DNA of 64,000 nucleotides from Nitrosospira sp. NpAV (GTDB lineage: Bacteria; Pseudomonadota; Gammaproteobacteria; Burkholderiales; Nitrosomonadaceae). The notes below the pieces were generated by a model. It saw only the letters and a program-made list of their open reading frames with translations. It was not told where the DNA came from and did not search any database. The first letter of the stretch is position 1, and every line of letters begins with the position of its first letter. The stretch lies in NCBI RefSeq assembly GCF_000832065.1, contig NZ_JXQM01000001.1, positions 434,001-498,000 on the forward strand, in the 5' to 3' direction. Positions 11,274-60,105 of the stretch are shown piece by piece. The position numbers were made by a program, and so were the translations under genes.

Positions 11274-11274
11274 A
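11239..11274 (+). CDS. Possible 11-residue leader peptide coupled to kdsB-like gene
   Basis: An ATG at 11239 with a GGAG about 10 bases upstream opens an 11-codon frame (MTTNPPINIDN) whose TAA overlaps the next ATG as TAATG. The kdsB-like gene lacks its own Shine-Dalgarno sequence, so translational coupling through this minigene is plausible. It could equally be chance; the length is too short to judge by codon use. Confidence 0.3.
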   Translation: MTTNPPINIDN

Positions 11275-12032: not shown

Positions 12033-12083
12033 ATCAAGTACTCTCGCACACCCGTTCAAGTAGCTTTTCCTTGTGGAGCACCT

Positions 12084-12845
12084 ATGCAATTGAAATCAAA
12101 ACTGACTCGGAATGCCTTAACCATCGGTTCATGGATCACGTTGGGACATCCAGCAATCGCCGAAATTATGGCCGCTGCGGGATTTGACTGGCTGGTATTG
12201 GATATGGAACACAGTGTTCTGGAACTCAGCGAAGTTCAAATGCTGATCCAGGTGCTCGACAGCCAGCAATGCCCGGCCATCGTGCGACTGACGTCGAATC
12301 ATCCCGATCAGATCAAGCGGGTTATGGATGCGGGCGCGGCGGGAGTGATGGTGCCTATGGTCAAAACCGCCGCTGATGCGGAGGCCGCGGTACAGGCCGT
12401 TTATTATCCGCCTCGAGGCCGGCGCGGAGTCGGCCTGGCACGTGCTCAAGGTTATGGCGCAAGATTTCAAGAATACCGGCACTGGTTGGAAGATAACGCC
12501 ATCATCGTGGCCATGATTGAGCATATAGATGCGGTCAATGCCATTGATTCCATTCTCTCCGTTCCCGGCATTGACGCCTATATCATCGGGCCTTACGATT
12601 TGTCCGGTTCCATGGGACGGCCCGGCGAACTCGATTATCCGGATGTTCAATCCGCTATTGAAAAAGTTAGGGAAGCAGGACGCCGATTAGGCAAACCTGG
12701 AGGTATTCACGTGGTCGAACCGGATCCCGAGATGTTGCGACGCAATATTGATGCTGGCTTCAACTTTCTCGGCTATGGTTTGGATATTCGCATTCTCGAC
12801 ACACTTTGCCGCGGTCATATGCAAAATATAAGGGCAGCGCTATGA
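12084..12845 (+). CDS. HpcH/HpaI-family class II pyruvate aldolase
   Basis: This TIM-barrel family reversibly adds pyruvate (or a related enolate) to an aldehyde, giving a 2-keto-3-deoxy acid. Visible sites are the catalytic histidine in LDMEHS (H43), the pyruvate-binding R68 in AIVRL, and the metal ligands E146 (MIEH) and D172 (GPYDLSG). PPRGRRGVG near 110 is typical of the family. The length of 253 is normal. The gene overlaps the next by ATGA and follows the KdsB-type transferase by 51 bases. That suggests it makes or breaks the ulosonic acid the transferase activates; direction and aldehyde are inference. Confidence 0.82.
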   Translation: MQLKSKLTRNALTIGSWITLGHPAIAEIMAAAGFDWLVLDMEHSVLELSEVQMLIQVLDSQQCPAIVRLTSNHPDQIKRVMDAGAAGVMVPMVKTAADAEAAVQAVYYPPRGRRGVGLARAQGYGARFQEYRHWLEDNAIIVAMIEHIDAVNAIDSILSVPGIDAYIIGPYDLSGSMGRPGELDYPDVQSAIEKVREAGRRLGKPGGIHVVEPDPEMLRRNIDAGFNFLGYGLDIRILDTLCRGHMQNIRAAL

Positions 12846-13780
12846 GCAAACTTGTTATTTCCACCTCGTCGTTCGATGTGGACAACAATCCCCATCTCCA
12901 GTACTTACAAAGGGAGGGCATGGATATTGCCGGGAATCCCTATAAACGTAAACTGACCGAAGACGAAGCTATCGAATTGCTGGGTGCGGATACTGTCGGG
13001 ATGATAGCTGGTATAGAACCTCTGACAGAACGGGTTCTCGCCTCCGCAAAAAAACTAAAAGTCATCTCCCGCTGTGGAAGCGGCCTGGATAGTGTCGATC
13101 TCGCGGCAGCAAAGCGTTACGGTATCGCTGTCCTTAATACCCCGGAGGCGCCAGCTCAGGCCGTGGCTGAGCTTACCATGGGTCTGATATTGGCTGCGCT
13201 GCGGCGAATATGCCAGATTGATCGACAGGTGCGAACGGAAGAATGGCCAAGAACGCAGGGCCAGTTACTCGCTGCCCAGTCGGTGGGCATCATTGGCCTG
13301 GGACGCGTCGGTGGGCGGGTTGCCCGTTTATGCCAGGCTTTTGATGCCAGGGTGGTAGCACATGATTCCTATGTAAAGCAGCCACCTCAAGGTATAGAAT
13401 TAGTACCGCTTGAGCAACTTCTGGCGGAGGCGGATATCGTGAGTCTCCACCTGACGTATGATGCTGACACTCACCATCTGCTAAATGGGGAAACTTTCGC
13501 ACGCATGAAACCCGGCGCGGTGGTAATAAATACGGCTCGCGGCGGTCTTATTGACGAAACCGCCCTGGCCGAGGCACTGGCTTGCGGACAACTCAGTGCG
13601 GCTGCGTTGGACGTTTTCGAGCAAGAGCCTTATCACGGTCCATTGCTCAAATGCGACAATATTATTCTCACTTCACATATTGGCTCACTTGCCAGGGAGT
13701 CTCGTCAGCGCATGGAAATCGAGGCGGCGGAGAATCTGCGGCAAGGCCTTGTCAATGCTGGTTTAATGAAAAACAGGTAA
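12842..13780 (+). CDS. D-2-hydroxyacid dehydrogenase (phosphoglycerate dehydrogenase-like)
   Basis: The 312-residue product has the NAD-binding GLGRVGGRV (152-160), the substrate-binding NTARGGLIDE segment, and the catalytic histidine in LTSHIGS. It lacks the C-terminal ACT domain of SerA-type enzymes. The start at 12842 overlaps the aldolase stop (ATGA), and the next gene begins 8 bases after its stop, so translation is probably coupled. In this operon it may oxidise or reduce a glycerate-like or ulosonate-derived hydroxyacid rather than serve serine synthesis. Substrate unknown. Confidence 0.82.
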   Translation: MSKLVISTSSFDVDNNPHLQYLQREGMDIAGNPYKRKLTEDEAIELLGADTVGMIAGIEPLTERVLASAKKLKVISRCGSGLDSVDLAAAKRYGIAVLNTPEAPAQAVAELTMGLILAALRRICQIDRQVRTEEWPRTQGQLLAAQSVGIIGLGRVGGRVARLCQAFDARVVAHDSYVKQPPQGIELVPLEQLLAEADIVSLHLTYDADTHHLLNGETFARMKPGAVVINTARGGLIDETALAEALACGQLSAAALDVFEQEPYHGPLLKCDNIILTSHIGSLARESRQRMEIEAAENLRQGLVNAGLMKNR

Positions 13781-13788
13781 AAAAAGGA

Positions 13789-14718
13789 ATGGCTAACGAA
13801 ATCGCTATCGTATATGGCGCCAGTGGTTTTCTTGGCAGTCATGTCGCCGACGCATTATCCGCCGCCGGCTATCGGGTGCGTCTGTTTGACCGGTGTCCAT
13901 CACGCTATCAGGGTCCCGATCAGGAAATGATCATTGGCGACATCATGGATCTTGACCAGGTGACGGAAGCGGCCAAGGGCGCAGACGTGGTCTACAATTT
14001 TGCGGCAATCGCGGACATTGATGAGGCTCATGACAAACCATTGGCTACCGCCACGATCAATGTATTGGGTAATATGCACGTGCTGGAGGCTGCCCGTCTC
14101 GCTGGAGCCCGCCGCTTCGTCTTTGCCAGCACGATTTACGTTTATTCCGAATCCGGTTCGTTTTACCGTGCCAGCAAGCAAGCGGCGGAGCGCTTTATAG
14201 AAACCTATCACGAGCGCTATGGACTGGACTATAGTATTTTACGCTATGGATCTTTGTATGGGAGGCGCGCTGATGCCCGCAATGGAATCTACCGGATGCT
14301 GCACGAAGCCGTTGAACGGCATTCGATAACCTACCACGGTACCGGCGAAGCGCTCCGCGAATATATTCATGTGGAGGACGCGGCGCGCATGAGTGTACAG
14401 GTGCTATCGGCCGAGTTCGCCAACCGTCATTTGATCTTGACAGGACAGGAGCGGTTGCGGATCAAGGATGTCATGACGATGATCTCGGAAATCATGCCCT
14501 GGGAAATAGCATTGAATTTTGATGAAGGCAATGCCGTGCATCACTATGAGGTAACCCCCTACGCATTTCAACCCCGCATCGGCCGCAAACTGGTGCTTAA
14601 TGAACATGTCGATCTTGGCCAGGGGCTGCTTGATTGCCTCAGGGATATTCACAAAACCATGCATCATTCCGGCGACGATGATGATGCCACCCCTTCAGTA
14701 TCCGCCAACAAAGCATGA
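13789..14718 (+). CDS. NAD-dependent epimerase/dehydratase (extended SDR)
   Basis: The N-terminal GASGFLGS (10-17) is the Rossmann nucleotide site of extended short-chain dehydrogenases. Y126 and K130 (YRASK) are the catalytic YxxxK pair, preceded by the FASTIYVYS serine/threonine region. The 309-residue length is usual for nucleotide-sugar epimerases or dehydratases. The ATG at 13789 is unusually close to AAAAAGGA. It lies inside the kdsB-like operon and overlaps the next gene by ATGA. It probably changes the stereochemistry of a nucleotide sugar or sugar acid; the exact substrate is not known. Confidence 0.82.
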   Translation: MANEIAIVYGASGFLGSHVADALSAAGYRVRLFDRCPSRYQGPDQEMIIGDIMDLDQVTEAAKGADVVYNFAAIADIDEAHDKPLATATINVLGNMHVLEAARLAGARRFVFASTIYVYSESGSFYRASKQAAERFIETYHERYGLDYSILRYGSLYGRRADARNGIYRMLHEAVERHSITYHGTGEALREYIHVEDAARMSVQVLSAEFANRHLILTGQERLRIKDVMTMISEIMPWEIALNFDEGNAVHHYEVTPYAFQPRIGRKLVLNEHVDLGQGLLDCLRDIHKTMHHSGDDDDATPSVSANKA

Positions 14719-15356
14719 AGACAGCGCACTGGCAAGCCATCATTTTCGATTTCGATGGTGTAATAGTTGAGTCTGGAGACATCAAAACACAAGCCTTCGG
14801 TAATCTCTACCGGTCCTATGGCGAAACGGTAATGACTGCAGTGATGCAGTATCACACCGCAAACGGCGGGATGTCTCGTTACCAGAAATTTCATTATTTT
14901 CAGAAACATCTGTTGGACAGACCACCTTTGACGGCGGATGAAGAGCGGCAGCTGGATCGACTTTTCTCCGAACTGGTGATCGAGGCGGTCATTGCCAGCG
15001 AAACAGTGCCCGGTGCAGCCGAACTGATTCGTAAAGAGGCCCCAAGAATACCTTTATTTGTCGCATCCGGTACGCCGGAAACAGAGCTTAATACGATTGT
15101 CACGCGTCGTGGCCTGGCATCCTATTTCACCGCGGTGCGCGGTTCCCCAACGCCAAAACAGATGCTCATTGCGGATATTTTGTCGTCCCACGCCCTTTCC
15201 CCCGAACGGGTGCTGATGATAGGCGATGCGCTGATTGATTATCAGAGTGCGCAGATGAACAAGATCGCATTTCTGGGGAGAGTGCGCCCGGGGGATACCA
15301 ACCCCTTTCCGGCAGAGGTAGATACGTTACCCGATCTGAGTCCACTGCTCACCTGA
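14715..15356 (+). CDS. HAD-superfamily phosphatase
   Basis: The nucleophile motif FDFDGVIVES (D12 nucleophile, D14 acid/base) and the later GDALIDYQSA metal loop mark a haloacid-dehalogenase phosphatase of the phosphoglycolate/beta-phosphoglucomutase type with a helical cap. It is 213 residues long. It overlaps the epimerase stop by ATGA. In sugar-acid pathways such a phosphatase releases the free sugar acid before CMP activation (as KdsC does), and I infer a similar role here. Confidence 0.8.
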   Translation: MKTAHWQAIIFDFDGVIVESGDIKTQAFGNLYRSYGETVMTAVMQYHTANGGMSRYQKFHYFQKHLLDRPPLTADEERQLDRLFSELVIEAVIASETVPGAAELIRKEAPRIPLFVASGTPETELNTIVTRRGLASYFTAVRGSPTPKQMLIADILSSHALSPERVLMIGDALIDYQSAQMNKIAFLGRVRPGDTNPFPAEVDTLPDLSPLLT

Positions 15357-15515
15357 GAAGAATCAATCCGCTACTGTTCCGATGGTATGAAATCGATAGC
15401 TCAAGCAGCGCTCCGCAGATGGAGTAGTGATCCACGCCAAAGCGAATACGATGCGAAAAATGGTTCAGTACGCATAGTTTGTCGCATTTCTTGAACATTC
15501 GAAAGGTTGGCGGAT

Positions 15516-16307
15516 ATGACTGGCAGCAAAGAAAAAAGGCCTATCAAAACGATTATTCTCAGCGCCGGTCAGGGGCGGCGACTGCTGCCGCTAACCGAAA
15601 ACATCCCAAAATGTCTGTTGCCGATTGGAGGCAAGCCAATTATTGAATGGCAAATTGATGCGTTACTCGCCGCCGGAATTCATAACATCACTGTCGTTAC
15701 CGGTTTCAAATCCAGCTTGGTTGAAGCGCTGTTGCAAAACTATGCGAACCGGGCGCAGATTAATACGATTTTTAATCCATTCTTCGAAGTTGCAGATAAC
15801 CTGGCCAGTTGCTGGATTGCACGTTCCGCCATGGATTACGACTTTCTGCTCCTGAACGGAGATACTATTTTTGATGAAGCGCTATTGATACAGGTATTGA
15901 ACTCGGCCTCCGCACCCATTACTCTCAGCGTGAGTCACAAACCCATCTATGATGCAGACGACATGAAGGTGCAGTTGGACGAAAACGGATGGGTCAAGCA
16001 CGTAAGTAAGAGCTTATCCGCAGATCAAGTCGACTGCGAATCCATCGGTCTTATTTTTTTTCGCGAGAACGGACCGCAATTGTTTCGCAACGCGGTCGAA
16101 GATGCGCTTCGAGACCAAGCAAAGCTTAAATACTGGTATCTTTCCATCGTGGATGGCTTGGCCGCCAAGCAACTAGTGAATACGTACTCTGTGCCCGGAC
16201 ACCTCTGGTGTGAAATTGATTTCATCGGAGATCTGGCAAAGGCTGAAGCACTTTTCAACAAAATAGATCAGGATAGAATGCCGCATAACTGCCTGTACAT
16301 AGGTTAG
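15516..16307 (+). CDS. Sugar-phosphate / LicC-like nucleotidyltransferase
   Basis: The N-terminal LSAGQGRRL (15-23), then PKCLLPIGGKP, is the NTP-transferase signature. NPFFEVADNLASCW and the C-terminal CEIDFIGDLAKAE resemble phosphocholine or inositol-phosphate cytidylyltransferases more than glucose-1-phosphate enzymes. Length 263. The ATG at 15516 has AAAGG 9 bases upstream and is preferred to a TTG at 15507. It follows the HAD gene by 159 bases and is probably the last gene of the operon. The nucleotide and the activated phosphate ester are unknown. Confidence 0.75.
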   Translation: MTGSKEKRPIKTIILSAGQGRRLLPLTENIPKCLLPIGGKPIIEWQIDALLAAGIHNITVVTGFKSSLVEALLQNYANRAQINTIFNPFFEVADNLASCWIARSAMDYDFLLLNGDTIFDEALLIQVLNSASAPITLSVSHKPIYDADDMKVQLDENGWVKHVSKSLSADQVDCESIGLIFFRENGPQLFRNAVEDALRDQAKLKYWYLSIVDGLAAKQLVNTYSVPGHLWCEIDFIGDLAKAEALFNKIDQDRMPHNCLYIG

Positions 16308-16592
16308 TCACTTCGAGTTTGCCCGCCCGCGACAGTTTTACGTAATCCTACACCCCAGAGATAAAACACCATCGTTCGTTAATAATCGCGCAGGAAACGG
16401 TGGTATCGGGTTTCGTTTCAGGGTGATTCAAGTAATCATCGGCTGAGTCTTCGAAGATGCTTTTTTATGCGAGGAGTTGTGTGAAGGTCATACAAATAGT
16501 ACCCTGACAACCCAGCACGATGATTCATAAACTTGATTGAAATATTCCTGGGCGAAATGCATCAGCCCGAGAAAAGTACATGGGCTTCTTGA
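16308..16592. other. Intergenic gap between operon end and HIT gene
   Basis: The 285 bases show no convincing terminator hairpin, repeat copy or reading frame. Confidence 0.35.
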
Positions 16593-17054
16593 ATGGTTAG
16601 TTTACCACGACCGGATGCACCAATCTTTAACGCGACAATGCGAAAGTTTGGAGCACCACACACAATAATTCATCGATATCAATACTGGAGTGTCATGCTC
16701 CGCCCAGTGCAGTTAACGCTTGGTTCTCTTGTTCTCGCCGCTCATGAGCCGGCTCACGAATTCTCTAAACTGAGTCAAGCGAGTTATACCGAGCTTCACA
16801 AAATAACAGCGCAGCTGGAACCTGCTTTAGCAAAAGCGTTTAATTACGACAAACTTAATTATCTGATGCTAATGATGGTTGACCCAGATGTACACTTCCA
16901 TGTTATTCCGCGTTACGCAAAGACAAAGTATTTTAATGGCCTGGAATTTATGGATTTCGGTTGGCCTGGAGCGCCTGACTTCCACCGCTCAAATGAAACT
17001 GATGCTGAAACTAACCAGCATATCATCCATTATATTTTGTCCTGTTGGACATGA
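16593..17054 (+). CDS. HIT-like protein with altered histidine triad
   Basis: The 153-residue product has the HIT fold features of bacterial Ap4A-hydrolase-like proteins (YQYWSVMLRPVQLTLGSLVL and NYLMLMMVDPDVHFHVIPRY). The usual HxHxHxx triad reads DVHFHVI: the first histidine is Asp99, while H101 and the catalytic-position H103 remain. The family hydrolyses or transfers nucleotides from phosphoramidates and dinucleoside polyphosphates. The first ATG (16593) and one at 16638 are both possible; the second fits family starts better. The gene is isolated by gaps on both sides. Confidence 0.75.
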   Translation: MVSLPRPDAPIFNATMRKFGAPHTIIHRYQYWSVMLRPVQLTLGSLVLAAHEPAHEFSKLSQASYTELHKITAQLEPALAKAFNYDKLNYLMLMMVDPDVHFHVIPRYAKTKYFNGLEFMDFGWPGAPDFHRSNETDAETNQHIIHYILSCWT

Positions 17055-17600
17055 GCATCATGCCGCCATGATACGTATACTATTTGACTTTCATTTTTCT
17101 GGTAAAGCGCTACAGGGTAAATTAGGCGGGTTTTTGCGGCCCAGGGCTGCGTTGGGTGCAATGCCTTGGAATGAGGGGACGCCCCTGTAGGAGACAACCT
17201 TTTCAGCGAAAAGCGCTTCTCCACCTGCGTGATCATTCCGCGTCGGAGCGCCTTGCCCTGCACCCCAAAAACTACATGCGCCACCCCATCCAATTATTGG
17301 ATTCAGAATGAATTAATTCATATTCGGGTAACCTTAATTCCCCGGTGGTTGCTTATGAATTCGGGTAATGGTATGTTCGGCAGCCTGGGTATCGATGGGC
17401 CATCGTCAAAAAAGGGGCTTCAGATTAATGCTTCGCTTTACAATTGCTACAATTCCGTAGACGCTGTATCCAGATAATCTGCTATAGCGGGCCTGCATGA
17501 TACTGGCAACATTCCCGGACAGACTGGCTTCCATCACTCATTAAACTTGTTAAACTTTTGACTGGTTAACGACTGATATGATTTTTGAAATGAGTCGACG
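17055..17600. other. Intergenic region carrying a partial dispersed repeat
   Basis: This 546-base gap between the HIT and phosphoglycerate mutase genes has no convincing gene. Its middle (17231-17310) holds a degraded copy of the dispersed repeat described separately. The stretch just before 17600 is AT-rich and could hold the gpm promoter. Confidence 0.4.
17231..17310 (-). repeat. Dispersed repeat R1, partial copy
   Basis: Read on the minus strand it contains AGTTTTTGGGGTGCAGGGCA followed by AGGCGCTCCGACGCGGAATG, closely matching the copy near 62.1 kb. The far end of the element (the GAGCGG and GGATTTAGG segment) is not found here, so this copy is truncated. Confidence 0.6.
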
Positions 17601-18386
17601 ATGATACAACTTGTTCTGTTGCGACATGGAGAAAGCATCTCGAACCGGGATGGGTATTTTACCGGCTGGAACGATGTCGCATTGAGTCAACGGGGGGAAC
17701 ATCAGGCGGAGCAGGCTGGTCGCCTGCTCAAGGAGGCGGGTTGCGAGTTCGACATATGTTTTACTTCGGAACTTAGACGAGCCACCGATACGGCGCGTAT
17801 CGTATTATCAGCGATGGGACTTGACGGATTGACTACACGGCAGAGTTGGCGCTTGAACGAGCGCCATTATGGCGCGCTGGAGGGAGTCCATCGCGTTAAT
17901 GCTATCGGGAAATTTGGCATATGGCCTGTCCTTAGTCCTCAGTTACGATTTAATGCAACACCCCCGCCGCTCCGTCCCGGTGACGCACGTTACCCGGGAA
18001 ATCAGCTTCGCTATTCTGATGTGGACAAGAAAGACTTGCCACTCGCGGAGAGCATGCAGCAGGCCCTCTCCCGAGTCTTGCCTTATTGGCAGGAAACAAT
18101 CGTGCCTGAGATCCAGCGCGGGAAGCGGGTTCTCGTGGTATCTCACCGCCACGTCTTACGTTCATTGATGATGCAGTTGCATGGATTGTCCGTTTCCCAA
18201 CTAATGAAATTGTCCATAGCAACGGGACGTCCGCTGGTATACAACCTTGACGATAAACTGGGGCCTGTCCAGCATTACTATGCTGATCATCAATCCACGC
18301 GTAAAGTTCAGTCCCAGGCTCAGCCCTCCCGGTCTCTATCCTTGCCCATAACAGACGATAGTCAAAGGGATAGATACCGAACATGA
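17601..18386 (+). CDS. gpmA: Phosphoglycerate mutase, 2,3-bisphosphoglycerate-dependent type (divergent)
   Basis: The enzyme interconverts 3- and 2-phosphoglycerate through a phosphohistidine. The phosphorylated histidine is H9 in [20 protein letters not shown] (82-95) carries the acid/base glutamate, and H182 in SHRHVLR is the second active-site histidine. That last motif is normally AHGNSLR, so the GNS triplet is changed to RHV. The 90-110 segment is also unlike usual GpmA, and there is an extra polar tail to 261 residues. It may be a paralogue with altered substrate. Confidence 0.8.
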
Positions 18387-18662: not shown

Positions 18663-19646
18663 TCAGCGTATCACGCCACGCCGCAACAATTGCCATGAAA
18701 TCTTAAAACCCCATAACACTGGGTGTCGTCGCAACATGGGCGTCACCTCGACACGAACCCCGGTATGGCGTTCGATTTTCCATGCAGCATAACTAATGCT
18801 GTCGCTGAAAGTGAACGCCGCCTTTGTCAGACGAAGCACCGACAAGACTGTTCCCTGCCAGCGCCGTAACCGCCAGCGCCAGCGCGCACGCTTGCGGTCC
18901 GCCTCATCGATCAGGCATCGATAGTGCCCGTCTGGCAGCGCCTCCAGGACTCCCACCAATGCCGGCGCGGCATGCTCAGTCAAGCGCGTATAATCATCCA
19001 GGTTGATCTGGGCGAGCTGTTGCGCCCGTGTTGCACGTTCGGGCCGCAATTCGGCTGCATAGGTTTGCGTCAAACCGTTGACCCAGATTGCTTCGACATT
19101 CGCCACGGACGCGTTTAACATGGGGAGACTGGATTTCAGGAATGTCACCACAGCTTGGGCCAGCGCAGTGTAAATATGCTTGCGGATGTTCTCGTCACGC
19201 GCATACAACAATCGGGAAGGTTGAGCAAAGCGTGCCCACAAATATGGATGAAACCAACGCCGGGTGCCTTGCTCGAAGTCTGCCATTGAGACCACCGCAT
19301 ACTTGGCCCGGAATTTCTTTTCCTGCATATCTTCCTGTGCGGCCACTTCAAGATAGAACACATTTGGAGCTAACCAGGCGTTAAGGTAACCAAGATAACG
19401 CTCTGGATAAGCTTTCCCGTAGCTGTTCACTATCGCGTAGAAATCTACCACCCCCTCACCGAGATCACCGGATCGCAGGCAGGATCCATAAAGAAGAATG
19501 GCCTCCAGCGAGGAGCCGAAACGTAATTTCAATGCTTCGACCAGAACGAGAAAATCCGGCGATACAGACCTCGAACTCAGCGAGGCCATCTCAGCGACTA
19601 GATCACTGGGAATGTGTTGATCAAATATTGAGGCGCGGTCTGTCAT
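18663..19646 (-). CDS. Nucleotidyltransferase-fold protein resembling Tam41/Mmp37 CDP-diacylglycerol synthase
   Basis: The 327-residue product has a Pol-beta-type nucleotidyltransferase signature: LLYGSCLRSG (G54, S55) with a metal-binding D68 in GVVDFYAIV. Further along, KYAVVSMADFEQGTRRW and YLWARFAQPSRLLY mirror the order of the KYGVVS, W and LYxxGRxxKPV blocks that I recall for Tam41, the mitochondrial enzyme making CDP-diacylglycerol from phosphatidate and CTP. No long membrane helices are seen. It overlaps the lipid-kinase stop by ATGA and ends a three-gene operon with that kinase and a CDP-alcohol phosphotransferase. That context supports a CDP-lipid synthase role, which remains inference. 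Confidence 0.55.
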   Translation of the reverse strand: MTDRASIFDQHIPSDLVAEMASLSSRSVSPDFLVLVEALKLRFGSSLEAILLYGSCLRSGDLGEGVVDFYAIVNSYGKAYPERYLGYLNAWLAPNVFYLEVAAQEDMQEKKFRAKYAVVSMADFEQGTRRWFHPYLWARFAQPSRLLYARDENIRKHIYTALAQAVVTFLKSSLPMLNASVANVEAIWVNGLTQTYAAELRPERATRAQQLAQINLDDYTRLTEHAAPALVGVLEALPDGHYRCLIDEADRKRARWRWRLRRWQGTVLSVLRLTKAAFTFSDSISYAAWKIERHTGVRVEVTPMLRRHPVLWGFKISWQLLRRGVIR

Positions 19647-20656
19647 GACTGTGAGTTTACCTTACCGGCTCCCACGAAGATAATTGGACCGGCGGCTGTG
19701 ATACGCAATGGCCCATTCCCGCTTGATGCCCGATAGGATTCACCATCGACGATGTAATCGTCATCTATCAACAGCTCCAGCGCTCTGGTATTGCAACTAT
19801 GATAACCATCTTGCTCCTTAAGTGTGTTCCCGCGGCCTGAAAGGAGCACCCATAGCGAACGCAAGGGACGTTTCGACCCCTGCCGGACGAATGTTATATG
19901 CAGCGGCTCCTCTTGGCTTCCCCAGTACGGACGCATGCCAAACAGCAGACGATCCAGACTACTGGCGAAAAGGAACGCGTAGGTTCCACGATGCAGTTCG
20001 ATATTCCTCTCGATAATCGACATTTGAACCGGTGCCCAGGCTCCGTGGCGACGCCCAAAAATCAAGCCGACAAGGTAGCCAAGTGTAATAAGAGCTGAAT
20101 AAATTTCTCCGGTAATACCCAGCTGTTTTATCTTGCTCCGAGAAAATATCACAGCACGGGCAATAAGTCCCACACCAAAAAACATCCCATAAACCTTTGC
20201 CATCCCCGCTTGTTCGATACACAGTACATGGCGTTGTATCAACACGGGAGGTACCCGCTTCAGCAGATGCTCCTTCAATTGCTGGACGATAAATTCCAGT
20301 TCACCGCAAATACCCAGATCCAGCGCCGTCATGTTGGTGGTACCACCCGGGACAACCATCAGTAAGGGCCATCTGGCGAGTGGTTGCGTTGCAAACAAAT
20401 GACACAAAACTCCCTGAACGGTACCATCCCCACCAACAATTACCAGCAAATCAACATCTGCCTGGACAAAGGCATCCACCGATGCGTTAATCTCAGGCGC
20501 GTTCGTGACTTCACGGCAGGTTGCGCCCGGAATCTCGGCGAGGGCTCGCCTTATTGCATCCTTGCGCTTGCGAATACGTCCGCTGAAAGGATTGAAAAGC
20601 AATCCGATTGCGGCCTCCCCAGCTCTCAATCTATTTATCCGTGAATTTTCTATCAT
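19643..20656 (-). CDS. Diacylglycerol kinase-family lipid kinase
   Basis: The catalytic domain has LLFNPFSGR near the start, the ATP-site GGDGTVQGVL (75-84) and PGGTTNMTALD (103-113), characteristic of DgkB/YegS/sphingosine-kinase-type lipid kinases. The 337-residue product would phosphorylate diacylglycerol, ceramide or a related lipid at the membrane face. The ATG at 20656 has AGGAG just upstream and overlaps the preceding gene by 26 bases; longer in-frame starts exist up to 20731. It is coupled by ATGA to the Tam41-like gene, so its phospholipid product could be the substrate for CDP activation. Confidence 0.82.
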   Translation of the reverse strand: MIENSRINRLRAGEAAIGLLFNPFSGRIRKRKDAIRRALAEIPGATCREVTNAPEINASVDAFVQADVDLLVIVGGDGTVQGVLCHLFATQPLARWPLLMVVPGGTTNMTALDLGICGELEFIVQQLKEHLLKRVPPVLIQRHVLCIEQAGMAKVYGMFFGVGLIARAVIFSRSKIKQLGITGEIYSALITLGYLVGLIFGRRHGAWAPVQMSIIERNIELHRGTYAFLFASSLDRLLFGMRPYWGSQEEPLHITFVRQGSKRPLRSLWVLLSGRGNTLKEQDGYHSCNTRALELLIDDDYIVDGESYRASSGNGPLRITAAGPIIFVGAGKVNSQS

Positions 20657-21872
20657 TTCTCCTAACCGCCAAGGGTGCAAAAATACGAACTGCCAGTCTC
20701 CCTTCATCCTGACCCGGAACAATGTCCTCAAACCATGATCGTAAAGACCCGTGGGACCGCCATGCTTGCCAACCCATCATTACCCGAACAGCAAGAAAGA
20801 CAGTCGAGAAAAGATGCCAGATAATTACCGACCAGAGACCGACGTCCGGTCGGCCAATGAACCAGCCAAATGTCAACAGGATCAGGTTGGGATTGCGCCG
20901 GGCAGTAACAAGCCGATTAAATGAATCCAGCGGCCGCCAGATAAAAATATCAAACGATGCAATCCAAAACTGGAAAATTCCTTCACACAATCGGCCGCCC
21001 ACGTAACCGATGAGTATCAACGAGAATATTATTGGCAGATCCGATACCTGCGTGAGTGCTCCCGTCAAGCCTACACCCCAAGCCATATACCATAGCGGTG
21101 GATGAATAATATCCAGGCCGTGATCGAGCACATCTCCAAAACGGCTTGAGGTGACGGTTACTCGCGCCAGCTTCCCGTCGACGGTATCCATAAAGGTCAT
21201 CAACCATCCCATCACCAGCCCCATGCCATAGTGGCCATGCCAGAAGGCAACTCCGGCCAGCAGTGCAAATACAAGACTGAGCAAGGTAACCTGGTTTGGC
21301 CGTATACCGAAGCGTACACAAATACGCACAGCCCAGAAGGCGGGTATGGGCCAGAGCCATTTCGTCACGAGGTCGGTCACGCCTTTGTAGGATCGGGCAA
21401 ATAGTTCTAATTCAAGCTGCCTCCTGTTATCGCTGCTGATAAATAACAGGTAGGGCAGATCCCTTTTCTTGAGATTCTGCTGAAGACCCAACAGATTCAA
21501 GTCTTTCAGCGTATAACGCGGCAAGGCGGAGAGAGCCTCTCCTTCTCCCCCGTCCATGAAATTCGCGAGCACATGGCGCATATTTCCATCCGTAATCCGG
21601 ATTGCAACCGGCTGGCCTATATCGCTGCTAAGCACTAGGTTCACTCGCGTATTAATCAATGCCGCCAAGACCCTGGCGTCAAACAAATGATCCGCCCGCA
21701 AAAATATTGCCGGCGCATGTGCTGGAATCTGCTCCGGATTATCAACCGTCCTGGTTTGATTGAATGCTCCTAACATCCGTCGTAGCCGCTCGCGGCCGCT
21801 CAGACCCCAGACGTTCGTCTCGCTATCTCCGAGGAGATAAATGTAGGTTACCACTGGAATATCCCGGGTCAT
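20631..21872 (-). CDS. CDP-alcohol phosphatidyltransferase with degenerate N-terminal domain
   Basis: The C-terminal membrane domain carries a complete CDP-alcohol phosphotransferase motif at 229-254: D229, D232-G233, A236-R237, G246, D250, D254. Several membrane helices surround it. Such enzymes join a CDP-activated group to an alcohol with loss of CMP. The first 160 residues (LLGDSETNVWGLSGRERLRR, AIFLRADHLFD) recall the nucleotidyltransferase half of bifunctional inositol-phosphate cytidylyltransferase/phosphotransferases but lack the GxGTR-type site. It begins the lipid operon. A dispersed repeat copy lies directly upstream at 21909-22083. Confidence 0.85.
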   Translation of the reverse strand: MTRDIPVVTYIYLLGDSETNVWGLSGRERLRRMLGAFNQTRTVDNPEQIPAHAPAIFLRADHLFDARVLAALINTRVNLVLSSDIGQPVAIRITDGNMRHVLANFMDGGEGEALSALPRYTLKDLNLLGLQQNLKKRDLPYLLFISSDNRRQLELELFARSYKGVTDLVTKWLWPIPAFWAVRICVRFGIRPNQVTLLSLVFALLAGVAFWHGHYGMGLVMGWLMTFMDTVDGKLARVTVTSSRFGDVLDHGLDIIHPPLWYMAWGVGLTGALTQVSDLPIIFSLILIGYVGGRLCEGIFQFWIASFDIFIWRPLDSFNRLVTARRNPNLILLTFGWFIGRPDVGLWSVIIWHLFSTVFLAVRVMMGWQAWRSHGSLRSWFEDIVPGQDEGRLAVRIFAPLAVRRNDRKFTDK

Positions 21873-22230: not shown

Positions 22231-23295
22231 CTAAAAAACCCGCCGCAACCAGAAATTAGCAATAGCAATCAACAGTAGCCCAGGAAAAAGAGCCGTTAGC
22301 GCAGGATTCAAATGCAGCAATAGACCCGCATTCGCGATAACCTGATCAAACAAGTAAACACTGATTCCAAGCATGGATGAGAGCACCAGCTTATTGCCGA
22401 GGCCTGTCCGTACCGATCCGAAAACAAAAGGAATGGAAAGCAACAACATGGCAATTGTCATCAGCGCTCCACCAGCCTTCCTCCACAAAGCCAGCGCATA
22501 GGCATCGGCCTCCTGCCCCGTCGCACGCAAGAAACGCACATGCAGAAACAATTCAATGGGGGAAAGACTCTCAGGTGACTTGGTCAATGTCGAGATATCA
22601 TCTGGATTCAGAAATGATTTCCAGTTCATCGATTTTTTGCTCACGGACTCGATGCGTTGTTCCGCAAATGTCTTGATGGTGACGTCGCTTAATTCCCATA
22701 GATCATCAGCAACAAGATCCGCATGTTTAGCATAGGTATAGGTTAGCAGGAACCCGTTATCATCAAAATGCATTACCTCAATATCCGCAGCCTTTTTTGC
22801 ATGCAGCATCTCGCCGATACGTAATATATTCCGCTCGTCCCGGGTCCAGATACCCAGATGTTTGCCAAGCGCAGCGCTCTTGTCAAGCGCGACAGCGCGG
22901 GAGGAGATGGCTCTCTGTTGAAGTTGCGGCGCGACAAATTGTTCTAGTACAGCAATGAATAATAGGAGAATCAGTCCCACTCCCAATGGAGCAAGACTGA
23001 TACGAATGGGAGAAATACCCGCTACCCGTAATGCGGTCAATTCTGAATTAACAGCTAGCCGTCCCAAAGCAATCACATTGCCCAGCAGCGTAATAAAAGG
23101 CGCAAGCTGGACAAACCTGCGCGGCAGCAGTAATGCGGTATGCAGGAACGCATCCTGGATGCGATAAGTCCCTTTTCCCACGTCGTCAAGCTGATCCAGC
23201 AAGTCGAGAAAACTGAATAGCGGCAAAAGCACCGCAGTCGCAATGCCCAAGCCCATTAAAACCTGCAAGGCCAGGTAACGGTTGGCTATTGTCAT
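22231..23295 (-). CDS. lptG: LptG-like permease of lipid/LPS export ABC transporter
   Basis: The 354-residue product has the LptF/LptG layout: three N-terminal helices, a large periplasmic beta-jellyroll domain (about 120-260), and three C-terminal helices. NSELTALRVAGISPIRI is the cytoplasmic coupling helix region that contacts LptB. The start at 23295 overlaps the lptF stop by ATGA. In the canonical machine LptFG with LptB extract lipopolysaccharide from the inner membrane. Here the neighbours are lipid and nucleotidyltransferase genes rather than pepA, so a dedicated second exporter is possible. Confidence 0.85.
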   Translation of the reverse strand: MTIANRYLALQVLMGLGIATAVLLPLFSFLDLLDQLDDVGKGTYRIQDAFLHTALLLPRRFVQLAPFITLLGNVIALGRLAVNSELTALRVAGISPIRISLAPLGVGLILLLFIAVLEQFVAPQLQQRAISSRAVALDKSAALGKHLGIWTRDERNILRIGEMLHAKKAADIEVMHFDDNGFLLTYTYAKHADLVADDLWELSDVTIKTFAEQRIESVSKKSMNWKSFLNPDDISTLTKSPESLSPIELFLHVRFLRATGQEADAYALALWRKAGGALMTIAMLLLSIPFVFGSVRTGLGNKLVLSSMLGISVYLFDQVIANAGLLLHLNPALTALFPGLLLIAIANFWLRRVF

Positions 23296-24368
23296 CGCCG
23301 AGGAAATAGCTTTCGCCAATAACCCGGTGACAGCAAAATGAATGCGACCACGGACATCAAGACGTAAAGCCACCAGACACCGGGTACTCTGCCGATGGTC
23401 CCCTGCTCCACCCATGTTTGAGCCAGTCCATTCAGGATATAGTAGATCGCAAAAACCAAAGCGGCGGCATAATAAGTCTTCTCCCCTTTATCCTGGCGAG
23501 GTGAAGCGCGGCTGAAAGGCACGGCGATAAGTGCCAGCAGAATGGTGGCAATGGGACGTGAAAGCCGCCATTGGAATTCCGCGATGTCGCGCGGCTGATC
23601 GGATTTCTGCAACGCCGTGGTGGCGGCGGCTTTGCGCTTGTAATCCAGCACGTTGCCGCTATCAGTAAAATACACCAGCTTCTCGAACCGGACTGCCGTA
23701 TCTCTCATTTCAGAATGCATCAGCCGGTAAGTAGCGCCATCACGCAAATGTACTTGAGGACGTTGCCCGGCTGCCGGCTCCTGCGGATAGGCTTCCTTGG
23801 CTACAATGATCTCGCTGCTGTCTTTCTTTCTGATGTAATGAAACACATCCTTCATCTCCTTGCCGGTGCTGTCCTTGGTATGAAGATAAATGACCCTGCC
23901 GCTACTTTCGCTTCCATAGAAACGCCCGGCTTGGAATCGATCCAAATTTAATTCAGCTTCCGCCTGCGCGTTCAGAATATAACTTTCTTCATAAGCCCAT
24001 GGGCGTATGAAGATAGACAGCGCACCGCTGATAATTCCCACGGGAATGGCAACGATGAGTACAGCATAAATTATGCGATTATCGCTGACACCGGCGGAAC
24101 GCAGTACATTAATTTCCTGATCCCTGTGCAGCCGCCCAAGACCCATGACAATAGCGACATAAAGAGCGATCGGCATCAGCACTTCCAGGGCAATCAGCGT
24201 CTTCAGCAGCACCAGCTTCAGCATGGCGGCGATACCCAGCGATTCTGTGACTGCCCCCGCCAGGAAGCGTGCACTGCTGAAACTCGAGAATAATGCCGCC
24301 AAAATGACGATCACCACCGTAAATGGTATTAACAATTCACGCGTAATATATCGTTCTATTATTTTCAC
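23292..24368 (-). CDS. lptF: LptF-like permease of lipid/LPS export ABC transporter
   Basis: A 358-residue permease with N-terminal helices (IERYITRELLIPFTVVIVIL), the coupling segment RDQEINVLRSAGVSDNRI, a periplasmic jellyroll (about 125-260) and C-terminal helices. It pairs with the following lptG gene (ATGA overlap), and 35 bases separate it from a MobA-like gene upstream. From memory, betaproteobacterial LptF near pepA looks different at the N-terminus, so this copy may not be the housekeeping one; that needs a genome-wide check. Confidence 0.82.
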   Translation of the reverse strand: MKIIERYITRELLIPFTVVIVILAALFSSFSSARFLAGAVTESLGIAAMLKLVLLKTLIALEVLMPIALYVAIVMGLGRLHRDQEINVLRSAGVSDNRIIYAVLIVAIPVGIISGALSIFIRPWAYEESYILNAQAEAELNLDRFQAGRFYGSESSGRVIYLHTKDSTGKEMKDVFHYIRKKDSSEIIVAKEAYPQEPAAGQRPQVHLRDGATYRLMHSEMRDTAVRFEKLVYFTDSGNVLDYKRKAAATTALQKSDQPRDIAEFQWRLSRPIATILLALIAVPFSRASPRQDKGEKTYYAAALVFAIYYILNGLAQTWVEQGTIGRVPGVWWLYVLMSVVAFILLSPGYWRKLFPRR

Positions 24369-24403
24369 GGATTCTTTTACTTCATCCTGAAACGGCCATA
24401 GAC

Positions 24404-25246
24404 CTAGGGAAACGGGTCGGGCGAGTCTGTTTTCTCTTGAGCAAGCGGCATTGCTCCCGCCAGGACGGATTCCACAAGCAGCATATCCTCAACTTTGTCC
24501 ACATCAACCCCAGCTTGGGGGAAAGGCAAAAAAACCGGCTGTACCTCGATTCCGGTCCTGGCCGTAACGGCTTTCAATCCTCGGGCGAGTGTCAATAATC
24601 CCAGCAAATACAAGAATACAGCCTTGAAACCAAAGGTCTGCCCGATCAGTAACCAGGGACGCTTGCGTAAATCCTCCGCCCGCTGCCAGAACGAGACCAA
24701 GCCACGGCCACGAGAATTAATAAATGCATAAAGATTGCAGCCGCAGACGCCGCCATCCTGCAACCGTATGACGGTTCGCTTGGCACCGGGAAATGCCGCG
24801 GCGACATCTTCATATTTGACCACTCCTACGGTGGCGTCACTTCCCGCCTTTTGCGATTCGCCCAAGAAATAGCGCACAATTGGAGATGTCAATAAAGCAT
24901 GGTCGGCTGTCGTCAGTAACACCGGAGCATTCTGATCGATGTGTGCGAGTCCGCTATTGGCGCTGCGGCTGGGAGAGTCCAGGTTCGGCAGCCAGCTGAC
25001 GCGCCCGCTCGCGATCCGCCTTTCCAGCTCGGGACAGCCTGGGAGCGCTGATTTGGGCGGGCCGCATACAATAATCGTCTTTACCATATCGCTGGCCTCC
25101 AGTGCATCCAGCACTCGGATGATCATCGGCGTTCCATAAATCGGTGCAAACGCCTTGCAGGCCACGCCTGCTTTAGTCGCAACCGGATCACCCGTCGCGC
25201 GGTCCGCGGCCAGTACGATAGCGGTAAATTGATTAATTTTATTCAT
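24404..25246 (-). CDS. MobA-like NTP transferase domain protein
   Basis: The 280-residue product has a Rossmann-like start TAIVLAADRATGD with a lysine in CKAFAPIYGTPMI (about 30-42), then LTTADHALLTS as the metal-binding segment. These correspond to the LAGGxGxR, K and D sites of MobA/GlmU-type transferases but are diverged (LAADR). A hydrophobic stretch (FGFKAVFLYLLGLLTLARGL) may touch the membrane. The ATG at 25246 starts the domain; the frame is open 45 codons further upstream. It lies 35 bases before lptF. The activated compound is unknown; a phospho-head-group for an exported lipid is one guess. Confidence 0.7.
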   Translation of the reverse strand: MNKINQFTAIVLAADRATGDPVATKAGVACKAFAPIYGTPMIIRVLDALEASDMVKTIIVCGPPKSALPGCPELERRIASGRVSWLPNLDSPSRSANSGLAHIDQNAPVLLTTADHALLTSPIVRYFLGESQKAGSDATVGVVKYEDVAAAFPGAKRTVIRLQDGGVCGCNLYAFINSRGRGLVSFWQRAEDLRKRPWLLIGQTFGFKAVFLYLLGLLTLARGLKAVTARTGIEVQPVFLPFPQAGVDVDKVEDMLLVESVLAGAMPLAQEKTDSPDPFP

Positions 25247-25451
25247 TGCAAACGTTAATCCAGATAACCCATCACGCAAATCCTGGAGTCCCCGCGAGTG
25301 CCGGCGGACAGTTTGTGGCCATTCCCGCCGCTTGCCCGGCGTCCATGGGATAAGCCATGAGCCTCCCTCAACCCGCAACACCGTCTCGCCATCATCTCAT
25401 GTCCTAAGGGATTATCTGGATACTCATACTATCTTGCCTGTCATATATCGA

Positions 25452-26606
25452 TTACAGCGTCTTGCCAAAAATCCGGTAACGTTTGTACTGCCGGCAGCCG
25501 AGGTAATCCAGAATTCCCCGCATTGCCTTGTTGTCCTCCAGTATCCATGACAATTCAACCGCCTGGATTCCCCTGGAAAGCCCTGCCTGCCGGGGCGCAT
25601 CAATTACCATGATCGCCAGCGCCATGCCAATCGGGGAACTCTGAAACTGCTTGCGCACTCCCATCAAGGGTATCCGGCCGGTACGAACTTTTCTGGATTT
25701 AAGGTACCTGATCATTCGAATCCAGCCAAGCGGAAACAAACTGCCATCAAGTTCGGCGAATATCTCGTTTAGATTGGGCAGGCCCGCCATAAATGCCGCC
25801 GGGCGACCATCCACTTCTGCAATCCGAATAAACTCATCGGGCACGAGTAGACGAAGACTGCTGCCGAGTTCGGCAAACTCGGCCTGGGTAAAAGGAACAA
25901 AGCCCCAATTCTCCGACCAGGCATCGTTGAATATATCACGCAAAATTTCCATCTCTTCATCAAATTTGTCGCGGCGTAGCGTTCGTAATCGCACCTGTCC
26001 GGAAAATCTTTCAATCACGCTGCTCATCAATCGGGGCATCTTTTGGTTAGTCTCCGCCCAATAGGCAAGTAGATCCTTCAGCGGTTGATATCCCTGTTCT
26101 TCAAGTAATTTACCGTACCAGCGGCGTGAATGCGGCATCATTACCATCGGCGGCGTATCAAAACCCTCCACGAGAATGCCGCACTCCTGATTGATGGATA
26201 GATTGAATGGTCCGCTGACATGCCTGGTATGCCGGGCAGCCAACCATTCCTCGGCGGTACGCATAAGCACAGCGAATACCTCTGTATCATCTATTCCTTC
26301 CAGCAGACCAAAATGCCCGGTATCCGCACCATAGCGCTGCCGGTGCAGCTGATCAATTTGTGCACTGATCCTTCCCACTGGCTGGTTACCCCGGTATGCA
26401 ATCCATGCCTGCCATTCTCCATGCTTGAAAAAGGGATTAAATCTGGAGAAGTGCAGACGCCGCTCCAGACGTAGGGGGGGTACCCACATCGGATCGTCCG
26501 CATATATGCGCCAGGGGATATCGATAAATACGCCCATCTCGCGATGATTTGTGACCGGGCATATAGTGATGGCTCCGTCTATTGGCGGATCCGGCCTTTC
26601 ATTCAT
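25452..26606 (-). CDS. GNAT-like acyltransferase family protein
   Basis: The 384-residue product begins with a block I recognise from an uncharacterised GNAT-like family (IPWRIYADDPMWVPPLRLER, NPFFKHGE, VGRISAQID, GHFGLLEGIDD). It continues through SGPFNLSINQECGILVEGF to a C-terminal GNAT-like fold (FMAGLPNLNEIFAELDGSLF, VELSWILEDNKAMRGI). As I recall, a member of this kind is the bacterial ceramide synthase of Caulobacter, an N-acyltransferase; this is memory, not shown here. It lies upstream of the MobA-like and lptFG genes on the same strand (205-base gap). Confidence 0.6.
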   Translation of the reverse strand: MNERPDPPIDGAITICPVTNHREMGVFIDIPWRIYADDPMWVPPLRLERRLHFSRFNPFFKHGEWQAWIAYRGNQPVGRISAQIDQLHRQRYGADTGHFGLLEGIDDTEVFAVLMRTAEEWLAARHTRHVSGPFNLSINQECGILVEGFDTPPMVMMPHSRRWYGKLLEEQGYQPLKDLLAYWAETNQKMPRLMSSVIERFSGQVRLRTLRRDKFDEEMEILRDIFNDAWSENWGFVPFTQAEFAELGSSLRLLVPDEFIRIAEVDGRPAAFMAGLPNLNEIFAELDGSLFPLGWIRMIRYLKSRKVRTGRIPLMGVRKQFQSSPIGMALAIMVIDAPRQAGLSRGIQAVELSWILEDNKAMRGILDYLGCRQYKRYRIFGKTL

Positions 26607-27390: not shown

Positions 27391-27546
27391 TTCGCGATCC
27401 GAGAAACCAGGTAGCAGCCGAAGATCAACCAGTTCCTTTAATTCAACCTGCGACAGATGGAATCGCTGTTTTGTCGTGCAAACTATCCACTTTATTTTTT
27501 CTTTCTTGCGCTACTTTTCGAATTTGATGATTAATCCTGATTGCGT

Positions 27547-28767
27547 ATGCGCATAGTCGTTACAGGAATGGGGATTGTCTCGCCAATTGGCATAGGCGTT
27601 GACCAATTCTGGACAGCGGCCGTCAATGGTGTCAGTGGTATCCGAACGATTACGGGCTTCGATCCATCCAGTCAGCGCTCCCAGGTAGCGGGAGAGATCC
27701 CGGGGTTCGATCCCGCCAGCTTTCTGACTGCCAAGTATATAGACCAAACGGACAGATTCACCCAACTGGCGCTGCTGGCCGCTAAACTCGCGCTGGAAGA
27801 CGCGGGTGGACTTGATACATACGCGCCTCAGCGTGTAGCCATAAGTATCGGTTCGGGAATGGGCGGTTTCGGTACCTTCGAATCCTCTGCTACGCGCAAG
27901 TTCCGGAATCAGCCTATCCCACCGTTTACAGTACCTCGGACCATGGCAAACGCCGCGGCTGCCTGGATCGCGATCAAACATCGATTTAAAGGGGTGAATC
28001 TGACCTGCAGCACGGCATGTTCCTCCGGAGCCAATGCGATTGGCATGGCTCTTGATCTTTTGCGGACGGGAAGGGCCGATGCGGTGATTGCCGGTGGTGC
28101 GGAGGGTTGCGTATTGCCTCTAACCATGACAAGTTTCGAAGTTCTGCATGCGCTGACTACCGGCTCTAATGCTGATCCGGCACGAGCATCCCGGCCTTTC
28201 GCCAAGGGTCGGGATGGATTTGCGATGGCGGAGGGCGCGGGTATGCTCATCCTGGAGAGGGAAGATCAGGCCCAGCTGCGAGGGGCAAAAATGTACGCTT
28301 GCCTTGCTGGGTATGGACAGGCATGTGATGCGACGCATATCGTGATGCCCGACATGGAGGGCCAGATAACGGCAATGCGGACGGCGGTGCTGGACGCTGG
28401 AATGAATATTGACTCCATTGACCATATCAACGCGCATGCGACATCCACACCCCTTGGAGATATCGTGGAAACCCGGGCCATTAAGAATCTTTTTGGCACC
28501 CGGGCAGGGGATATTGCCGTGAATGCCACCAAATCCATGATCGGACATTCGATCGGCGCATCGGCCGCCATGGGTAGCATTGCCACTATCATGGCCCTGC
28601 ATACGGGTACCATACATCCAACTATCAATCTTGATGAGGCTGATCCGGAATGCGATCTTGATTACATACCCAACCGCGCACAGCAGCGGAACCCACGAAA
28701 CGGGCTATGTAATGCTTTTGGTTTTGGTGGCAACAATGCAAGTATTATCTTCACAACCCTTGAATGA
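27547..28767 (+). CDS. fabF: 3-oxoacyl-ACP synthase II (FabF family)
   Basis: A condensing enzyme that extends an acyl chain on ACP with malonyl-ACP. The catalytic triad is C158 (STACSSG), H297 (NAHATST) and H334 (MIGHSIGASA), with K329. The 406-residue length is usual. The ATG at 27547 is preferred over a TTG 6 bases upstream. The gene is followed immediately by an acyl carrier protein gene, and the normal fabHDG neighbours are absent. This points to a specialised fatty-acyl or polyketide-like chain rather than the main fatty acid operon. Confidence 0.9.
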   Translation: MRIVVTGMGIVSPIGIGVDQFWTAAVNGVSGIRTITGFDPSSQRSQVAGEIPGFDPASFLTAKYIDQTDRFTQLALLAAKLALEDAGGLDTYAPQRVAISIGSGMGGFGTFESSATRKFRNQPIPPFTVPRTMANAAAAWIAIKHRFKGVNLTCSTACSSGANAIGMALDLLRTGRADAVIAGGAEGCVLPLTMTSFEVLHALTTGSNADPARASRPFAKGRDGFAMAEGAGMLILEREDQAQLRGAKMYACLAGYGQACDATHIVMPDMEGQITAMRTAVLDAGMNIDSIDHINAHATSTPLGDIVETRAIKNLFGTRAGDIAVNATKSMIGHSIGASAAMGSIATIMALHTGTIHPTINLDEADPECDLDYIPNRAQQRNPRNGLCNAFGFGGNNASIIFTTLE

Positions 28768-28784
28768 AGGAATGGAACCAGATT

Positions 28785-60067: not shown

Positions 60068-60105
60068 TTAGCCTCAATACCGCAGTAACAGGCTTTAGCA
60101 GAAAT

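Follow-up and report, generated by a model that had tools for sequence, protein, structure and literature searches.

A probable ceramide-decorating locus with a predicted Tam41-fold nucleotidyltransferase in Nitrosospira sp. NpAV

Results

The DNA analysed here, a stretch of 64,000 nucleotides from the ammonia oxidiser Nitrosospira sp. NpAV (the window, meaning this whole stretch), carries at positions 18663–21872 three genes encoding a CDP-alcohol phosphotransferase, a lipid kinase and a 327-residue Tam41-like protein. Inspection of the sequence showed all three on the minus strand, each overlapping the next, exactly as a first-pass annotation had described them; that annotation had taken them for a CDP-lipid operon in which a lipid is phosphorylated, activated with CTP and given a head group. 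Our analysis suggests instead, with a probability of about 0.68, that the locus decorates ceramide: the Tam41-like protein (CpgC) would produce CDP-ceramide, and the proteins CpgD and CpgA would lead on to the lipid CPG2, in a pathway linked to a phosphoglycerate-mutase paralogue. The functional unit extends beyond the trio, taking in 15507–18386 on the plus strand and 22231–26606 on the minus strand, and comprises the following genes.

15507–16307, plus strand: CpgD-like cytidylyltransferase, proposed to convert CTP and 2-phosphoglycerate to CDP-glycerate (PF00483, 1.3e-15)
16593–17054, plus strand: HIT-domain protein (PF01230, 0.0023; 19 bits, under the cut-off of 21.5)
17601–18386, plus strand: divergent phosphoglycerate-mutase paralogue, PGAM2 (TIGR01258, 251 bits; cut-off 81.7)
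18663–19646, minus strand: nucleotidyltransferase of predicted Tam41 fold, 327 residues, CpgC (CC_1161) orthologue by synteny
19643–20731, minus strand: lipid kinase (DAGK_cat, PF00781), CpgB (ceramide kinase) orthologue by synteny
20631–21872, minus strand: CpgA-like CDP-alcohol phosphotransferase with N-terminal domain, 413 residues, CC_1159 orthologue by synteny
22231–23415, minus strand: LptG permease (TIGR04408, 325 bits; cut-off 240)
23292–24368, minus strand: LptF permease (TIGR04407, 331 bits; cut-off 230)
24404–25381, minus strand: MobA/CofC-like nucleotidyltransferase, CC_1153 orthologue by synteny (PF12804, 1.4e-14)
25452–26606, minus strand: GNAT-like protein, ceramide synthase (CerS, CC_1154) orthologue by synteny (PF00583, 1.8e-4)

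Orthology to Caulobacter proteins was assigned by gene order, protein families and the published list for N. eutropha, not by alignment to Caulobacter sequences. The ATG of the 327-residue gene shares 4 nt with the TGA of the kinase gene. The kinase, which matches DAGK_cat above the Pfam cut-off (4.3e-15) as expected of the diacylglycerol-kinase type proposed for it, has a frame open up to a TTG at 20731. An alternative ATG at 20656, behind the Shine-Dalgarno sequence TAGGAGAA, would give a 26-nt overlap with the CpgA stop; in genomes that have no CpgA at this locus, homology starts at varying points between residues 1 and 31 and favours neither start. For the CC_1153-like nucleotidyltransferase, homology begins near residue 40–50 in most relatives.

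All 37 family genomes, 36 relatives and the window's own, carry the Tam41-like gene (G034 as a contig-end fragment), against 0/24 genomes from other families of the order, a distribution not due to chance. Among 398 Pseudomonadota genomes drawn, 27 carry it, in searches that scored at most 5 candidates per genome for the Tam41-like gene and 4 for serine palmitoyltransferase (SPT), so that absences in this set are soft. The best named relatives, among the best 80 of 404 stretches encoding one, are Nitrosospira, Nitrosovibrio and Nitrosomonas records. The kinase adjoins the Tam41-like gene in 57/58 loci (the window, 32/32 family loci L002–L033 and 24/25 distant loci), and in two family genomes (G013 and G033, of 37) the two proteins occupy one uninterrupted frame, in which an internal start at the usual place is possible. 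The kinase and the Tam41-like gene are thus a fixed pair.

The peptides GSCL, VVDF, KYAVVS and WARFAQPS, on which the Tam41 assignment had been based, are present in the 327-residue protein. Its match to PF09139 (Tam41_Mmp37) was found as proposed, at E 0.01, but its 15.6 bits fall under the gathering cut-off of 24. At that E-value the profile matches just 6/37 aligned homologues; it returned one sub-threshold match (21 bits, in G024) over the 398 Pseudomonadota genomes and none in 14 control genomes, Caulobacter among those named. An NCBIfam scan gave no match, and in a profile search of the PDB by sequence, Tam41 appeared at E 0.05, no better than two chance-like matches beside it. Structure was more informative: an AlphaFold2 model built from an alignment of 27 natural sequences (27 of 33 near ones; mean pLDDT 82.5) placed Tam41 at ranks 1–5 in a Foldseek search of the PDB (E 7e-8 to 5e-7; TM-score by target 0.53–0.56), these being four mitochondrial Tam41 chains (6ig2, 6ig4) and one Firmicutes protein (7ecd), aligned at 13–15% identity. 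The next kind, aminoglycoside nucleotidyltransferases, began at E 1.7e-4 with a TM-score of about 0.3, so the structure prediction suggested in the first-pass annotation bore out its Tam41 call, with unrelated nucleotidyltransferases ranking lower.

Conservation was assessed over 37 sequences (12 of 33 near and all 25 distant ones; 27–76% identity to the window protein). Residues Y53, G54, D68, P94, K115, A117, W137, R139, Q142, P143, Y196, E199, R201 and E203 are invariant in all 37, as are R272, A276, T279, Y286, K290, R293 and H294 in a conserved C-terminal region, W258–R327, that falls outside the stretch matched by Pfam. D68 is the sole invariant acidic residue before residue 199, i.e. 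the sole one of the nucleotidyltransferase motif, and Tam41 itself is described as retaining just one of the three acidic residues (PMC11646218). The model therefore predicts a Tam41 fold, with a second domain beside the nucleotidyltransferase one, and the protein probably has Tam41-like chemistry, though it lies outside the Pfam family as drawn.

The identity of the lipid was addressed through the genes for ceramide synthesis. On another contig of the window's own genome (C153, locus L169), AasR, CerR, AcpR and SPT are adjacent and in order, with 48%, 38%, 31% and 53% identity, respectively, to the proteins of a distant locus, L141, and this SPT passes the NCBIfam serine palmitoyltransferase equivalog NF047599 with 588 bits, where 500 are required. 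SPT was detected at E 1e-60 in all 37 family genomes, the same ones as the Tam41-like gene, and in other families of the order in 1/24, weakly (35% identity). Across the 398 Pseudomonadota, SPT (E 1e-80) occurs in 36 genomes, the Tam41-like gene in 27 and both in 26 (Fisher 1.6e-31, relatedness ignored). Two distant loci, L141 and L154, encode an AMP-binding enzyme, an epimerase and an SPT-kind aminotransferase, then on the other strand the Tam41-like protein, the kinase and a CDP-alcohol transferase, followed by a metallophosphoesterase, LptF and LptG; an acyl carrier protein was found in L141, and a HIT homologue precedes LptF in L154. This is the gene order given for Caulobacter CC_1165–CC_1155 in the text of PMC11324152. 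CerS-like homologues (E 3e-75 to 7e-108) and the CC_1153-like nucleotidyltransferase were each found together with the kinase/Tam41-like pair within a stretch of 14 kb in 6/25 distant loci.

A CdsA-type synthase (PF01148) scored above cut-off in 61/61 genomes, so CDP-diacylglycerol needs no second enzyme, and on this ground we rejected the Tam41-like protein as a housekeeping CDP-diacylglycerol synthase. SPT co-occurrence, the genome's own SPT operon, the Caulobacter-type gene order and the CdsA-type gene everywhere together make ceramide, not diacylglycerol, the most likely lipid, and ceramide-1-phosphate, not phosphatidic acid, the most likely substrate. The operon's proposed link to a lipid kinase thus stands, with CDP-lipid chemistry as the best guess; phosphatidic acid as its substrate does not fit genomes that carry SPT and already have CdsA.

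Near these genes, an epimerase at 13780–14718 was considered as CerR and set aside: part of it aligns with the L141 CerR, at about 30% identity, and the other contig has a better CerR (38%) next to SPT. At 27541–29042 on the plus strand, upstream of the CerS-like gene, the window encodes a FabF-like ketosynthase and an acyl carrier protein; the AcpR query from the SPT operon gave no match there at E 1e-5.

CDP-alcohol phosphotransferases carry the motif D-x2-D-G-x2-A-R-x8-G-x3-D-x3-D. In CpgA (PF01066, 2.8e-10, 41.2 bits against a cut-off of 22) it is complete, as had been noted, and D229..D232-G233..A236-R237..G246..D250..D254 is invariant in 14/14 aligned homologues; the closest fold is AF2299 (TM-score by target up to 0.72), followed by phosphatidylinositol-phosphate (PIP) synthases and IPCT-DIPPS (0.49). 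CpgA is present in 25 of the 37 family genomes, to which the CpgA, CpgD and HIT counts refer; the other 12 keep the kinase and the Tam41-like gene without it. Strong CpgD matches (E<1e-80) occur in exactly those 25 genomes and in none of the 12, where weak matches in five (E 1e-11 to 1e-12) were counted as other nucleotidyltransferases (Fisher 5e-10 over 37 genomes, relatedness ignored). The joint CpgA/CpgD label requires six changes, five of them forced by supported branches, on a tree that holds 33 of the 37 members (G003, G007 and G008 left out; G034 a fragment). In G014, G016 and G001, and more loosely in G021, a module of CpgD, HIT, mutase and CpgA lies away from the kinase, and in the first three it ends in a short stretch that matches kinase residues 1 to 41–78 and partly overlaps CpgA. 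In G001, the CpgD beside the kinase/Tam41-like pair (L177:11280–12043) is split into two frames, and another contig carries CpgD at full length as well as a second CpgA.

CpgD of Caulobacter makes CDP-glycerate in vitro (PMC12275187), and Caulobacter CpgA is described in PMC11324152 as required only for the second glycerate, not for the first head group. Because CpgA is present or absent along with CpgD, it most likely uses CDP-glycerate. The data do not support a single linear chain of kinase, Tam41-like enzyme and CDP-alcohol transferase: the transferase is missing from 12 of the 37 genomes and tracks CpgD, so the complete path read into the trio does not hold. From sequence and model, CpgA and CpgD look like a split IPCT-DIPPS, CpgD matching the NCBIfam IPCT/DIPPS entry at 7.7e-15, under cut-off. 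An inositol lipid was rejected: CpgA scores best against archaetidylinositol-phosphate and PIP synthases but below cut-off, and its context is one of glycerate; inositol genes were not searched for. The CC_1153-like nucleotidyltransferase, whose Caulobacter counterpart is reported as required for CPG2 (PMC11324152), was found in 37/37 family genomes and in 0/24 of the other-family genomes.

CpgD, the HIT protein and the mutase paralogue occur together in 25/25 CpgD genomes (the window, four genomes and 20 loci), with a gap of 817 to 4490 bases between CpgD and the mutase; this linkage of CpgD with a HIT protein and a divergent mutase paralogue is the new observation of this work. The paralogue scores as a 2,3-bisphosphoglycerate-dependent mutase (TIGR01258) and was found (E<1e-80) in 28/37 family genomes, namely all 25 with CpgA/CpgD and G026, G029 and G035; in the 6-kb stretches around it in these three, no HIT match and no close CpgD were seen. 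Compared with ten housekeeping GpmA copies, all 28 paralogues keep R8, H9, R60 and E87, and the second catalytic histidine (182) is present in the four displayed and was not flagged as changed. The Arg-Arg pair 114–115 and Gly183 are replaced in 28/28, as are Lys98 and Asn18, and Thr24 in 27/28, positions that we take to be substrate contacts.

The CpgD paper postulates a dedicated phosphoglycerate enzyme (PMC12275187), and the texts of PMC12275187 and PMC13228409 do not settle where CpgD obtains its phosphoglycerate. The mutase paralogue is, from its sequence and linkage, a candidate for this enzyme, and its substrate may have shifted. Nothing in the literature searched joins a phosphoglycerate mutase with ceramide phosphoglycerate or CDP-glycerate, and the word "mutase" is absent from the main text of PMC11324152, PMC12275187 and PMC13228409. 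Also beside CpgD, the window holds at 11274–15356 on the plus strand a run of KDO-cytidylyltransferase-like, HpaI-type aldolase, phosphoglycerate-dehydrogenase-like, epimerase and HAD phosphatase genes, which recurs next to CpgD in 11/20 family loci examined and is possibly a sugar-acid pathway or a glycerate supply.

The genome has no PF03739 genes other than the LptF and LptG encoded in the window. Of 19 family genomes checked, 18 have two such genes and one, G021, has three; among distant genomes, 15/25 have just two, which in 11 of these 15 adjoin the Tam41-like gene. The LptF/LptG copies of the Caulobacter cluster are called second versions (PMC11324152); those of the window cannot be second copies, because they are the sole pair, and the gene counts suggest that in this family one LptFG pair may serve both lipopolysaccharide and sphingolipid.

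Elsewhere in the window (59222–61880), two tandem 281-residue proteins, 83% identical and about 1 kb apart, share the tail IPEPGILGLVGIGLLGLG...RRRKA, which is presumably PEP-CTERM-like.

Discussion

In the pathway that we propose, ceramide would come from the AasR–CerR–AcpR–SPT operon elsewhere in the genome together with the CerS-like GNAT protein (25452–26606), and the CpgB-type kinase would make ceramide-1-phosphate. The Tam41-fold CpgC would move CMP from CTP to ceramide-1-phosphate to form CDP-ceramide, from which glycerate would displace CMP through a putative transferase, giving ceramide phosphoglycerate (CPG). CpgD (15507–16307) would convert CTP and 2-phosphoglycerate to CDP-glycerate, from phosphoglycerate that the linked mutase paralogue probably supplies or processes; CpgA (20631–21872) would move phosphoglycerate from CDP-glycerate onto CPG to yield CPG2. 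In Caulobacter, the activity of CpgB as a ceramide kinase has been demonstrated (PMC10331486) and genetics shows that CpgC and CpgA are needed (PMC11324152); CC_1161 (CpgC) is required for CPG, and its authors note a CDP-diacylglycerol-synthase-like InterPro domain and suggest an NDP-activated ceramide (PMC11324152). We infer functional orthology to the Caulobacter Cpg genes, CDP-ceramide as the CpgC product and the role of the mutase.

Several observations weigh against this pathway. The pathway needs a further, putative transferase to use CDP-ceramide, and CDP-ceramide, cytidine diphosphate ceramide and ceramide-1-phosphate cytidylyltransferase are named nowhere in the literature searched. 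Orthology to Caulobacter CC_1161 and CC_1159–1160 was drawn from gene order and the N. eutropha list of PMC11324152, and the PF09139 score of the Tam41-like protein is sub-threshold. The associations are also imperfect: one distant locus (L145, of 25) has no kinase adjoining the Tam41-like gene, one genome (G401) has that gene and no SPT match at E 1e-80, and 10/36 SPT genomes are without it. The agreement of CpgA with CpgD in 5/5 independent pairs (sign test p 0.0625) comprises too few to reach 0.05, and the CC_1153-like nucleotidyltransferase, kept in the 12 genomes without CpgA/CpgD, is not tied to them. Finally, G026, G029 and G035 carry the mutase paralogue without CpgA/CpgD, and the paralogue alters residues conserved in 10/10 housekeeping GpmA copies, so that it may not interconvert 3- and 2-phosphoglycerate.

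Of the other ways to read the locus, a glycerophospholipid path, leading from phosphatidic acid made by the kinase through CDP-diacylglycerol made by the Tam41-like protein to a head group added by the transferase, agrees with the Pfam and fold names, the overlapping genes and the ability of a bacterial Tam41 to make CDP-diacylglycerol (PMC11646218, citing Kimura 2022), yet we consider it very improbable: CdsA is present in all 61 genomes, SPT accompanies the Tam41-like gene in 26 of 27, the transferase is dispensable (absent from 12/37) and follows CpgD, and Caulobacter cpgB mutants are described in PMC10331486 as no different in phosphatidic acid levels. The dispensability of Caulobacter CpgA for the first head group (PMC11324152) speaks against this path in the same way. 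The first reading of the trio is thus correct on the sequence and wrong on the lipid, with one enzyme too many in its chain. It is also improbable, if less so, that LptF/LptG and the other neighbours are accidental and the trio an isolated unit. LptF and LptG do score above ordinary lipopolysaccharide-export equivalog cut-offs in a genome with no other pair, but they lie within a 14-kb stretch of the kinase/Tam41-like pair in many distant loci, where the CC_1153-like and CerS-like genes recur (6/25 each), and 11/15 distant genomes with only two PF03739 genes have them beside the Tam41-like gene.

A rather unlikely alternative, to which we would give more weight than to either of these, keeps the Tam41-fold protein in the ceramide pathway with an acceptor other than ceramide-1-phosphate, for example activating glycerate or phosphoglycerate for transfer to ceramide-1-phosphate, or another partner. 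CpgC is needed for CPG by a mechanism described as unidentified in the texts of 2025 and 2026 (PMC12275187, PMC13228409), no separate glycerate transferase is known, and the conserved W258–R327 lies beyond the Pfam-matched stretch. Against it stand the best folds, which are lipid-phosphate cytidylyltransferases, above aminoglycoside nucleotidyltransferases; the close pairing, with two shared reading frames, with a kinase that would make ceramide-1-phosphate; and Caulobacter CpgD, which already makes CDP-glycerate (PMC12275187).

Beyond this locus, we lean, at somewhat better than even odds, towards the Tam41-type family of sphingolipid-making Pseudomonadota being a CTP:ceramide-1-phosphate cytidylyltransferase, with two CTP activations, one of the lipid and one of the head group, the second by a co-inherited CpgA/CpgD/HIT/mutase module. 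If both CDP-ceramide and CDP-glycerate are formed, CTP would activate the lipid when the first glycerate is attached and the head group when the second one is. From the presence or absence of CpgA and CpgD, 12/37 ammonia-oxidiser genomes are predicted to stop at CPG and 25/37 to go on to CPG2. The comparison bears on the mechanism of CpgC and on the phosphoglycerate source for CpgD.

Comparison with known systems

Tam41/TAMM41 (6ig2, 6ig4) and the Firmicutes Tam41 (7ecd) share with the 327-residue protein the nucleotidyltransferase fold, as its closest structural match, and a single invariant acidic residue (D68), and K-Y-x-V-x-S and R-F-x-x-P are common to it and the 6ig2 chain. Unlike the mitochondrial CDP-diacylglycerol synthase, its genomic setting points to ceramide-1-phosphate. 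IPCT-DIPPS (4mnd) and AF2299 have, like CpgA, a CDP-alcohol transferase preceded by an N-terminal domain, and CpgD is similar to the IPCT half; in contrast to IPCT-DIPPS, CpgA and CpgD fall under all NCBIfam cut-offs and the nucleotidyltransferase is encoded as a separate gene.

The closest counterpart is the published Caulobacter phosphosphingolipid cluster, CC_1168–CC_1152, with CpgA, CpgB, CpgC and CpgD (PMC11324152, PMC10331486, PMC12275187). A bacterial Tam41 operon with its own kinase had been thought unusual; a bacterial Tam41 structure (7ecd) exists, and such a cluster is on record for Caulobacter and N. eutropha (PMC11324152). That paper gives names for the orthologues of N. eutropha, spread over three regions, and says that the organism should be able to form CPG/CPG2 (PMC11324152); in G027, the Tam41-like gene, SPT and CpgD lie on three separate contigs. 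Nitrosospira has the kinase, Tam41-type protein, CDP-alcohol transferase, CerS-like GNAT, CofC-like and CpgD-like nucleotidyltransferases and LptF/LptG, with an SPT operon in the genome, and by synteny and families the homologues of CpgB, CpgC, CpgA, CpgD, CC_1153 and CerS are all six in the window. A tblastn search with the L141 copy found no CC_1158-like metallophosphoesterase in the window, and the text of PMC11324152 gives N. eutropha as lacking one too. Unlike in Caulobacter, the ceramide genes are on another contig, LptF/LptG are a sole pair where the LptF2/LptG2 designation implies second copies, and the neighbours of CpgD include a HIT protein and a phosphoglycerate-mutase paralogue.

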